DNA from: an uncultured Pelagibacteraceae bacterium
Lineage (GTDB): Bacteria; Pseudomonadota; Alphaproteobacteria; Pelagibacterales; Pelagibacteraceae
Length of the DNA: 64,000 nt
NCBI GenBank assembly: GCA_902569105.1
Contig: CACFTE010000002.1
Location: 43,501-107,500 of the forward strand
Direction: 5' to 3'
Below the pieces are notes generated by a model. The model ran no database searches. It worked only from the letters and a program-made list of their open reading frames with translations, and was not told where the DNA came from. Shown in pieces: positions 9,134 to 12,511 of the stretch (position 1 is its first letter; each line of letters opens with the position of its first letter). Made by a program: the position numbers and the translations under genes.

Positions 9134-9184
9134 ATTGTATAGGGATATATTGGTAAAACTTTACCATTATTGTTCCTATACAAT
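9134..9184. other. Two-tier perfect inverted repeat downstream of csp (candidate structured 3'UTR or terminator-like element)
   Basis: ATTGTATAGG(9134-9143)/CCTATACAAT(9175-9184) enclosing TGGTAAA(9151-9157)/TTTACCA(9160-9166); no U-tract after it. Confidence 0.6.
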
Positions 9185-9225
9185 TCAGCCTTGAATTTTT
9201 AATTTAAAGTGTTAATTACTCACCA

Positions 9226-9300
9226 ATGATTAAAAAAATTAATAATTATAATTCTTCTCACAGACATCATTTTCATGCTGGCTGCACGCTAGCTATTTAA
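9226..9300 (+). CDS. Putative histidine-rich leader peptide MIKKINNYNSSHRHHFHAGCTLAI
   Basis: 24-codon ORF with His at codons 12, 14, 15 and 17, directly upstream of tRNA-His-hisS-hisZ-hisG; hairpin GCTGGC(9277-9282)/GCTAGC(9288-9293) begins immediately after the last His codon. Confidence 0.6.
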   Translation: MIKKINNYNSSHRHHFHAGCTLAI

Positions 9301-9352
9301 TCATTTTAAAAATTTAAATTTAACAATTATTAGTATAAAACAGTGAAAGGAA

Positions 9353-9427
9353 GCTGCCGTCGTATAATAGTTATTACTCCCGCCTGTGGAGCGGGCTATC
9401 TTGGTGCGATTCCAAGCGGCAGTACCA
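9353..9427 (+). tRNA. tRNA-His (anticodon GTG), CCA encoded, A73
   Basis: Acceptor GCTGCCG/CGGCAGT (G1-U72 wobble), anticodon arm CCCGC-CTGTGGA-GCGGG, T-arm CTTGG-TGCGATT-CCAAG, ACCA end. Confidence 0.85.
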
Positions 9428-9430
9428 AAA

Positions 9431-10819
9431 ATGAAAAAAGAAAACAATTTAATACCCAGTCTTCCTAAAGGATTTAAAGATAGATGGGGAAAAGAATTAG
9501 CTTTAAAAAAAAAGTTATTAAAAATCATTGAAGCTAATTTTACAAAATATGGATTTTTACCATTGGAAACTTCTCCAATGGAAATCAGTGAAAATATAGG
9601 ATCATTTCTTGCAGATGATGATACCAACCCTATGTCTGATGTATTTACATTCAATGATGAAAAAGAATCCTTAACCCTCAGATATGATATGAGCGCACCT
9701 CTGGCAAGATTCGTGGCTCAAAACTATAGAGATCTAACATTTCCATATAAAAGATATACTTTTGGCGATGTCTTCAGAAGAGAAAAACCAGATAGTGCAA
9801 GATATAGATCTTTCATGCAGTTTGATGCAGACATCATTGGCAATGTAAATGAAGGACAGGCAGATGCTGAAATTTGTAATATTATTTCTGATACTTTTTT
9901 TAACTGTGGACTTAAATCAGATCAATTTACAATAAATGTTTCTAACAGAAAGATTGTTCAAGGACTTATTTCTGAACTTAAAATAACGAACGAGCAAGAA
10001 CTAAAAGTTATTAGAGCAATTGATAAGTTAGAAAGAATTGGAATAGATGGTGTTAAAGATCTTCTTCAAAAAGAGAGAAAAGATGAGAGTGGAGCAATAA
10101 CTAAAGGTGCAAACTTAACTAATGAGCAAACATCCCAAATTATTGAATTCTTAAAGATAAAAGATATTAAATCATTGAAATCAAATATCAAAAACAACAT
10201 ATCTCAAGAGGGAATTAATGAGATAGAAGAGCTATTTAATATTTTATCTAAAGGAAATTTCTCAAATCAGATTAAAACTAATTTCAATATTGTCAGAGGG
10301 CTAGCTTATTATTCTGGTTTTTGTGTTGAGACAAATTTAAATTTTAAAGGAAAAAATACTCAAGGAAAAGAAATCGATATTGGTTCTTGTGCATCAGGTG
10401 GTAGGTACAATTCTCTTATTAAAAGATTTAAAGGCGTTGATTTTAAAGGAACAGGTATGTCAATAGGTGTAGACAGGTTAGTTTTTGCTTTAAATCAATT
10501 AGATCAGTTTAAAGAAGATGACAGTAACAATATTCTAGTTTGTGTTTTAGATCCAAACTATATGGATCAATATTATAAAATAGTAAACGAACTGAGAGAA
10601 AATAATATTAATTCTGAAATATACCTAGACTCTTCCAAAAATCTTAAAAAACAATTAACTTATGCGGATAAAAAAGGTTGCTCTCTTGCAATTATTTGTG
10701 GCCAAGAAGAAATTGAGAAGGGCAGAATAACAATTAAGAAATTAAAATCTAAAAAAGAAAACGATCAAATATCAATCAGTTCAAAAAATTTAATAAATGA
10801 AATCAAGAAACTTATTTAA
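9431..10819 (+). CDS. hisS: Histidyl-tRNA synthetase (track start 9386 lies within the tRNA; Met at 9431 preferred)
   Basis: LPKGFKDRWGKE; TLRYDMSAPLARFVA; RYKRYTFGDVFRREKP-like class II motif; GLAYYSGFCVE; GGRYNSL. Confidence 0.92.
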   Translation: MKKENNLIPSLPKGFKDRWGKELALKKKLLKIIEANFTKYGFLPLETSPMEISENIGSFLADDDTNPMSDVFTFNDEKESLTLRYDMSAPLARFVAQNYRDLTFPYKRYTFGDVFRREKPDSARYRSFMQFDADIIGNVNEGQADAEICNIISDTFFNCGLKSDQFTINVSNRKIVQGLISELKITNEQELKVIRAIDKLERIGIDGVKDLLQKERKDESGAITKGANLTNEQTSQIIEFLKIKDIKSLKSNIKNNISQEGINEIEELFNILSKGNFSNQIKTNFNIVRGLAYYSGFCVETNLNFKGKNTQGKEIDIGSCASGGRYNSLIKRFKGVDFKGTGMSIGVDRLVFALNQLDQFKEDDSNNILVCVLDPNYMDQYYKIVNELRENNINSEIYLDSSKNLKKQLTYADKKGCSLAIICGQEEIEKGRITIKKLKSKKENDQISISSKNLINEIKKLI

Positions 10820-11834
10820 AATTCTTAAGTCCAAAGGGTTTAAGAATATTGAGTTAGACAATATAATAGAGTCAAAATATGTTCTTAAAAGATCAGGAGG
10901 AAGTTATAGACAATTTCTGTTTTCTTTTTATGATCAGAACTTAAAAGAATGGTCATTAGTACCTGATTTATCTGTTAGCAGTGTTGTTAAGTTTATTCAG
11001 AATAAAATTAAGTCAAAAACTAAATGGTTTTATACCGGAGAGGCTTACCGTAAACAAAATAAAAACTATAACTCTCCCATAATTAATCAGACTGGATTTG
11101 AAATTTTCGCTTCTAATGACAAATTTAAAGATGATAAAGAGATAATTCAAACATCTATTGAAATATTTAAAAAATCAAATTTTAAAATAGGTGAATTAAA
11201 TATAAGCAACATTGAAATATTTAATGCATTAGTAAATAGACTAACACTAGCAAGGCGCTGGAAGGACAGGATAAAAAGACATTTTTGTAGAGAAGTATAT
11301 TTTAATCAATTATTAAAAAAACTTTCTAGTAGTTCAGATATAGATCCTGTTGCTGTTGAGAAAGATAAAAAAATTGCTGAAAAATTAAGAAAGCAAAATC
11401 TTAACACTTTATATTCCGGTAGAACACTTAAAGATATTTTAGAACGTTTTGATTTAAAAAATTATAAAGAACCAAGATCTGGAACAGATAAAAAAAATGT
11501 TAAAATTATAAAAGAGTATCTTAAAATTTCCTGTCCAATAGAGAAAGCCACAGTTACATTAAACAAGTTTTTTAAAAAAAATAAGTTAAATTTATTTATT
11601 AGTGATGACTATTTTCCTGTAATTGTTAATAAAAGTTTAAGAATAAAATTTTCAACAAATATAAATCGATCTCTCGAGTATTATTCAGGAATGGTTTTTA
11701 ATATTTCGGTTAATAAAAAGGGTAAAAAAAGTGTGCTAGTATCAGGAGGTCGTTACGATGGATTGCTAAAAAATCTTGGAAGTAAAAAAGATACATCAGC
11801 GGTTGGTGCAGCTATTGATATGAGTTTATTATGA
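10797..11834 (+). CDS. hisZ: ATP phosphoribosyltransferase regulatory subunit (HisRS paralogue)
   Basis: HisRS-like fold motifs (WFYTGEAYRKQ, YYSGMVFNI, SGGRYDGLL), located between hisS and hisG. Confidence 0.88.
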   Translation: MKSRNLFKILKSKGFKNIELDNIIESKYVLKRSGGSYRQFLFSFYDQNLKEWSLVPDLSVSSVVKFIQNKIKSKTKWFYTGEAYRKQNKNYNSPIINQTGFEIFASNDKFKDDKEIIQTSIEIFKKSNFKIGELNISNIEIFNALVNRLTLARRWKDRIKRHFCREVYFNQLLKKLSSSSDIDPVAVEKDKKIAEKLRKQNLNTLYSGRTLKDILERFDLKNYKEPRSGTDKKNVKIIKEYLKISCPIEKATVTLNKFFKKNKLNLFISDDYFPVIVNKSLRIKFSTNINRSLEYYSGMVFNISVNKKGKKSVLVSGGRYDGLLKNLGSKKDTSAVGAAIDMSLL

Positions 11835-12511
11835 AAAATGAAATATTAAACATTGCTACTTTATCCAAAGGCCGTTTAAAGGATCAGGCTGAAAAAGTTT
11901 TTAAAAAAAATGGTTTAAAAATTATTTCAAAATCAGAAAGATCATTAATTGGATCAATCAAGGGGTTTCCTAATGTTCGTGTAATGTATATGAATGCGAC
12001 AGAAATTATTGAAGCTTTAGGAAAAGGCGTTTGTGCGATTGGGATTAGCGGAAAAGATCTATGGAGAGAAAGTGAGCCCAGCATTCAATCTAAAGTATCT
12101 TTAGTAAAAGAGTTTGAATGGGGAAAGTCTGATCTAGTAGTTGCTGTTCCAACTACTTGGATTGATTGTATAAATTCTGCAGATTTAGAGGAAATATCTT
12201 TTGAGTTTTTTAAAAAAAAGAAAAGACTAATGAGAGTTGCAACAAAATTTAAGAACCTCAGTAGAGATTGGTTTAATGAAAAAGGAATTACACAATATGA
12301 ACTTATTTCTTCTCTTGGAGCAACAGAAAACTCACATATAATTGGAAAATCAGATCTGATTGTTGATTTGAGCTCAACAGGTGAAACCTTGCGTCAAAAT
12401 AATTTAAAGATTATTGAAGTTATTTTAAAGTCATCTGCGTGTCTTTTTACTTCTAAAAAGTTAAAAAATAAAAAAGAGGTAAAAAAAATTGTAAAATTAC
12501 TTTCTAAATAA
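11831..12511 (+). CDS. hisG: ATP phosphoribosyltransferase catalytic subunit (short form)
   Basis: IATLSKGRLKDQAEKVF, DLIVDLSSTGETLRQNNLKII. Confidence 0.93.
   Translation: MKNEILNIATLSKGRLKDQAEKVFKKNGLKIISKSERSLIGSIKGFPNVRVMYMNATEIIEALGKGVCAIGISGKDLWRESEPSIQSKVSLVKEFEWGKSDLVVAVPTTWIDCINSADLEEISFEFFKKKKRLMRVATKFKNLSRDWFNEKGITQYELISSLGATENSHIIGKSDLIVDLSSTGETLRQNNLKIIEVILKSSACLFTSKKLKNKKEVKKIVKLLSK

Follow-up and report, generated by a model that had tools for sequence, protein, structure and literature searches.

A conserved leader with clustered histidine codons upstream of tRNA-His–hisS–hisZ–hisG in Pelagibacteraceae, a probable ribosome-mediated attenuator

Introduction

Does the short, unannotated open reading frame (ORF) with clustered His codons that precedes tRNA-His and hisS in a Pelagibacteraceae (SAR11) genome serve as a sensor of histidine supply for the genes that follow it? 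Few cells on Earth are as abundant as SAR11 bacteria, which are thought to have shed most regulation. His leaders occur before his operons of gammaproteobacteria and in some Firmicutes (PMC9413887); in bacilli, His leader peptides have been reported upstream of hisZ and of a hisS paralog (Naville and Gautheret 2010, PMC2965389). A search of the open-licence literature turned up no earlier account of such a leader in SAR11.

Results and Discussion

The leader and its genes in the window

The window, a stretch of 64,000 nucleotides of genomic DNA, carries a hisS region that matches records of uncultured Pelagibacteraceae (SAR11), and the leader, its candidate promoters and its genes lie on its forward strand. 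The His leader ORF (positions 9226–9300) has 24 codons, reads MIKKINNYNSSHRHHFHAGCTLAI and has His at codons 12, 14, 15 and 17. A hairpin that we term hairpin B (9277–9293; GCTGGC-TGCAC-GCTAGC, 6 bp with one G-U pair) begins directly past codon 17, the CAT of the last His, and TATTTAATCATTTT comes next. The decamer AATGATTAAA (9225–9234), which overlaps the start codon, is a perfect complement of TTTAATCATT (9296–9305), which lies directly 3' of hairpin B and spans the stop codon; the two are the arms of a candidate helix, S1. After a gap of 52 nt from the leader stop come tRNA-His (GTG; 9353–9427, with CCA encoded), hisS for histidyl-tRNA synthetase (9431–10819), which begins 3 nt past the tRNA, a hisZ-like gene for a HisRS-like protein (10797–11834, PF13393) and hisG for ATP phosphoribosyltransferase (11831–12511, PF01634). 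A sequence-only reading of this DNA had reported the ORF, its His codons, the hairpin and the gene order, all of which were recovered at the same positions, and its perfect match between the two decamers was reconfirmed.

Folded by itself the window leader is not unusual (z = -0.5), and an Rfam scan (gathering threshold and E up to 5) returned the tRNA and one chance match, with no his operon leader and no T-box. An element known to Rfam, be it the gammaproteobacterial HisL covariance model or the T-box riboswitch, is ruled out by the absence of an Rfam match. Because the single-sequence folding is ordinary and Rfam recognizes only the tRNA, the case rests on comparison.

Conservation of the His codons

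The regions upstream of hisS were compared at 200 loci, 190 from the window's family (Pelagibacteraceae) and the other 10 from a sister family within its order; not every locus represents a different genome, and the distinct leaders number 178. A short ORF starting with ATG and containing at least two His in eight codons stands before tRNA-His–hisS at all but one of the 190 family loci, which cover at least 11 genera, and at the single exception (L141) the ORF is kept (MIINIIFRNTNTVYFHSL) with one His. When at least three His in eight codons were required, an ATG ORF was present in 80.5% of all 200 upstream regions versus 0.63% of first-order Markov shuffles, a comparison that is not a p-value because the loci are related. 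A chance ORF is ruled out by these observed and shuffled frequencies (80.5% against 0.6%).

The leader peptides fall into about seven types, for example HRHHFHAG, RGVHxHFHAG, STHRxCFHS, SHSHRMHARLLLS, AKHHFAHARLLLS, STHRHHPHAEHALS and HTHHHTHAKHGLGN, which are hardly alike, yet their geometry is constant; one type has two His codons only. Within the 24-codon type the first half (codons 4–11) is hypervariable with the reading frame always open, while His 14, 15 and 17 are invariant and their CAC and CAT codons swap synonymously. Across the leaders, His is encoded 341 times by CAT and 232 times by CAC. Conservation among Pelagibacterales relatives of the His-codon ORF and of both pairings had been named beforehand as the check on the sequence-only reading, and that check was passed, with the ORF at 189 of 190 loci, hairpin B in essentially all and S1 in most lineages. 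Together these comparisons support a conserved ORF with the appearance of being translated before tRNA-His–hisS–hisZ, with clustered His codons that match the function of the downstream genes, as in leader-peptide attenuators. A small unannotated gene would thereby be added in nearly every genome examined here.

Hairpin B and its fixed position

In all 178 distinct leaders hairpin B begins exactly 3' of a His codon, with a stem of 4–7 bp. A strong stem is present at this exact position in 99% of loci. As a position control, the site was shifted in frame, and nearly every shift gave such a stem in 10% of loci or fewer; only shift -18 stands out, with 22%, and there some clades carry an additional hairpin that covers the His codons or precedes them. 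Counted from the opening base of the first His codon, hairpin B lies 15–18 nt away in 148 of the 178 leaders and 12–24 nt away in 176 of them, and the leader stop codon falls within hairpin B or at most 9 nt past it in every one. The stem sequence differs from clade to clade, in part through changes on both sides, for example from GCTAGC/GCTAGC to GCAAGC/GCTTGC. With a conservative alignment of one stem type, 100% of the cells pair, and the covariation score was reached by 8 of 500 shuffles.

Other roles of the stem were rejected by inspection: hairpin B has a freely varying loop, which speaks against an anticodon mimic bound by HisRS, and pairing of its arms with the tRNA is inconsistent between clades. 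An extra hairpin over the His codons themselves takes the form CAYTCT-CAC-AGARTG or TGCAAAA-CACCA-TTTTGCA in several genera (loci L168–L180, L205–L234, L153, L154, L172–L174, L177 and L178), with a two-sided change in L174.

Pairing of the start region with the tail

In five of seven groups the start region is more complementary to the 20 nt past hairpin B than it is when tails are permuted within the clade. The S1 partners change by lineage and stay complementary: apart from the window's own decamers they are TAAATAGTTA/TAACTATTTA, TATTAAATAAT/ATTATTTAATA, TGATTATAA/TTATAATCA, ATTATAAATA/TATTTATAAT, AATATAAATA/TATTTATATT, AAATATATA/TATATATTT and ATATAGTT/AACTATAT. S1 was not detectable in L007, L016, L020, L169 and L175, and where it is present the shuffle values for single lineages are modest (0.002–0.18) because the RNA is AT-rich.

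In the ribosome-free fold S1 and hairpin B form together. When ribosome footprints were masked, a stalled ribosome plus a queued one left hairpin B alone, the stalled ribosome being sufficient in two of five cases, and a ribosome on the stop codon left neither S1 nor hairpin B. Fixed geometry and this footprint-masked folding, which is a model, thus give an RNA structure that differs between the stalled and the released ribosome. The sequence-only reading had implied that S1 and the hairpin are two alternative folds; they are instead compatible, and both are present without a ribosome. No conserved structure competing with hairpin B, as in a mutually exclusive terminator/antiterminator pair, was found in the family leaders. 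A second, alternative hairpin in the tail was predicted in the window-type clade only, when S1 was blocked, and was discarded as it is not conserved. The HisL-like attenuation first proposed is therefore supported in part: the His leader and its two pairings recur in relatives, and a switch between two folds is not seen because hairpin B and S1 are compatible.

Promoters and the downstream unit

Upstream of the leader ATG, 185 of 189 relatives have P1-like boxes, a TTG -35 and a -10-like hexamer, with a spacer of most often 16 and 6–8 nt between the end of the -10 and the ATG. The candidate P1 of the window (9191–9218) consists of TTGAAT (9191–9196), a 16 nt spacer and TAATTA (9213–9218); a strict-consensus promoter scan of the window did not list it. 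Judged from these boxes, P1 transcription would start at the ATG or within a few nucleotides of it. As the -10 ends 6–8 nt before the ATG in most leaders, the transcript probably has little or no sequence ahead of the leader ORF.

At 116 of 119 distinct loci the 30 nt before the 5' end of tRNA-His hold a TATAAA-like box, preferentially at offsets of -16 to -20; in a neighbouring interval the share is 66%, such boxes being common in this AT-rich DNA. The TATAAA at 9334–9339 is a weakly evidenced candidate for the -10 of a second promoter, P2, which may lie before tRNA-His and would bypass the leader. A hisZ-like gene follows hisS at all 101 loci checked, and at 110 of 119 distinct loci hisS begins 3–6 nt past the encoded CCA of tRNA-His. 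In the window (9427–9433) there is no space for a ribosome-binding site between tRNA-His and hisS outside the tRNA, so excision of tRNA-His would leave a leaderless hisS message. For one clade (L009, L010, L121, L142 and some 20 loci like them) ARAGORN reports no tRNA-His although Rfam finds a tRNA there with 47–51 bits, which suggests that the tRNA-His of this clade is unusual.

Proposed mechanism and alternative explanations

The reading of this ORF as a His-responsive leader peptide is probably correct, and we consider it quite likely that the leader is a cis-acting, ribosome-mediated His sensor, that is, an attenuator, for the tRNA-His–hisS–hisZ–hisG unit. We infer translation, start sites, stalling and the direction of control from the arrangement just described. 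Transcription from P1 would begin on the leader ATG or close to it, and the short ORF would be translated. If charged tRNA-His were scarce, the translating ribosome would stall with the first His codon in its A site and its front edge just short of hairpin B, leaving hairpin B able to form, and the pairing of the start region with the tail in S1 would be blocked by another ribosome waiting at the start codon or, in some lineages, by the stalled one itself. RNA polymerase would then continue into tRNA-His–hisS–hisZ–hisG. If His-tRNA were plentiful, the ribosome would reach the stop codon in or next to hairpin B and melt it, and on its release the RNA would close into a domain of S1 plus hairpin B with the start codon buried, a state favouring premature termination before tRNA-His.

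The output step is the least certain part, and we suggest only tentatively that it is a weak intrinsic signal at hairpin B and the AU-rich tail or else Rho loading on the exposed leader. In the 8 nt past hairpin B, five or six are T in 59 of 178 leaders, including those of the window's clade, and at most four in the other 119. A canonical intrinsic terminator, meaning a GC hairpin with an immediate U run, is absent from most relatives and is approached loosely in the window clade. In the window itself, hairpin B with TATTTAAT was scored as terminator-like by a simple scan (1 found, 0.2 expected), and 6 of 8 are T in the STHRxCFHS clade. It is on balance unlikely, though these two cases speak for it, that hairpin B and the AU-rich tail are themselves an intrinsic terminator, blocked by a ribosome on the later His codons or the stop, in which case control would depend on leader translation generally as much as on histidine. 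Most clades have 2–4 T of 8, while ordinary terminators with T7 tails exist at some gene ends in the family. A ribosome stalled at the first His, 15–18 nt before hairpin B, would moreover leave hairpin B free and give termination under starvation, which is the wrong direction for a biosynthetic unit. The U run is dispensable if attenuation is Rho-dependent, which fits most clades and which we regard as somewhat improbable: the ribosome-free leader, relatively C-rich and G-poor, would load Rho and transcription would stop in the AU-rich stretch before tRNA-His, unless a stalled ribosome covered the loading site. The TnaC leader follows this Rho-dependent logic, a ribosome stalled on it covering the loading site. 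Stalling on TnaC is the subject of PMC8429421. Rho is encoded in complete relatives; no match to it was found in the genome of the window, which is incomplete, and the stretch past the leader is C-poor.

The short distance from CCA to hisS at 110 of 119 loci, with the leaderless hisS message expected on tRNA excision, would also suit post-transcriptional control, in which the leader and its structures act on how the joined pre-tRNA-His/hisS transcript is processed or how stable it is, and not on termination. Nothing ties the leader to processing, however, and the usual role of such leaders is attenuation before the first gene (PMC9413887), so that this is decidedly unlikely. Explanations that dispense with a sensing ribosome fare worse. 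At the nucleotide level, conservation extends to the hairpin, to S1 and to the promoter-like boxes, as it would in a conserved non-coding RNA or promoter DNA with the ORF as a by-product; start codon, frame and His nevertheless persist despite near-total sequence change, CAC and CAT exchange, and stop positions differ, which makes this very improbable. Clustered His are likewise conserved at the peptide level, as in a small His-rich peptide with a function of its own such as metal binding, but the N-terminal half is hypervariable, the types are very different, and what stays constant is a set distance from His codons to an RNA hairpin, always before hisS; such a peptide is scarcely credible here. 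With the leader still taken as a ribosome-mediated His sensor, a more specific form of the proposal, which we rate as possible but doubtful, is a terminator-less leader-peptide control in Pelagibacterales. A leaderless His ORF would have its start region hidden through pairing with the tail past the hairpin, which is itself fixed at the last His codon. Its targets would be the tRNA and synthetase responsible for the signal, so that feedback on His-tRNA charging forms a closed loop, and output would be by Rho or by tRNA–hisS processing in place of a U-run terminator.

Relation to known leaders

Most likely the leader belongs to a known general type, ribosome-mediated attenuation, within which its layout is unusual. 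In the E. coli trp leader the distance from the regulatory codons to the hairpin and the stop codon are so placed that the ribosome covers that segment, and the start region pairs with a distal segment. By analogy, hairpin B of the SAR11 leader would occupy the place of the 2:3 hairpin, whereas no 3:4 terminator was identified in SAR11 and the amino acid differs. Like enterobacterial HisL, where a stalled ribosome is proposed to choose the RNA state (PMC9413887), the SAR11 leader is a short ORF with clustered His upstream of histidine genes; unlike HisL it precedes tRNA-His–hisS–hisZ–hisG, lacks a long His run and an alternative terminator/antiterminator pair, and has a probable near-leaderless start. 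The closest published case by target is that of the bacilli, in which a His leader stands before hisS-family genes, hisZ and the hisS paralog (PMC2965389). Those leaders differ in belonging to Firmicutes and in having been found via intrinsic terminators; no tRNA-His is mentioned in the unit (PMC2965389), and no relation in sequence or layout to the SAR11 leader is apparent. The structured RNA motifs of Pelagibacter ubique (Meyer et al. 2009, PMC2704228) are likewise cis-regulatory intergenic RNAs from the same group of organisms; the main text of that paper mentions neither hisS nor histidine, and regions holding a tRNA were removed from its candidate table (PMC2704228).

With about 95% of the genome coding, the family-wide retention of a leader of about 120 nt implies that it pays these cells to sense histidine supply or His-tRNA charging. 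If the proposal is true, leader-peptide control would act jointly on an aminoacyl-tRNA synthetase and its own tRNA. The mechanism is directly testable with the many leader variants that occur in nature.

Distribution and neighbouring elements

In the sister family hisS has no tRNA-His before it and is preceded by leaders of the type MxxxxHHHxHI with a hairpin past the stop. The leaders in question (L028, L031–L034 and L290–L294) read HHHYHI, HHHSHI or HHHIHI; a hairpin of 6–9 bp lies right past the stop, followed by a C run and a U run, and the promoter-like sequence is TTGAC-17-CATTTC. Among 65 Rhizobiales-type hisS upstream regions there were two unconvincing matches, and among 20 hisS loci of other alphaproteobacterial families one candidate starting with GTG and without a nearby tRNA-His. 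None of these 85 regions being convincing, there is no evidence of an Alphaproteobacteria-wide leader, and a phage origin was rejected as there was no match in phage records. A scan of a complete SAR11 genome for clusters of any amino acid with a hairpin gave five matches, of which the His leader alone has the layout; the other four are ordinary or weak, so that this genome held no leader of the same layout for another amino acid.

In the window an inverted repeat (9135–9183; TTGTATAGG...CCTATACAA) without a T run separates the cold-shock gene from the candidate leader promoter. It is present in many close relatives, another clade having a T-run terminator instead, and may be a binding site for a regulator or else the hairpin at the 3' end of the cold-shock mRNA.
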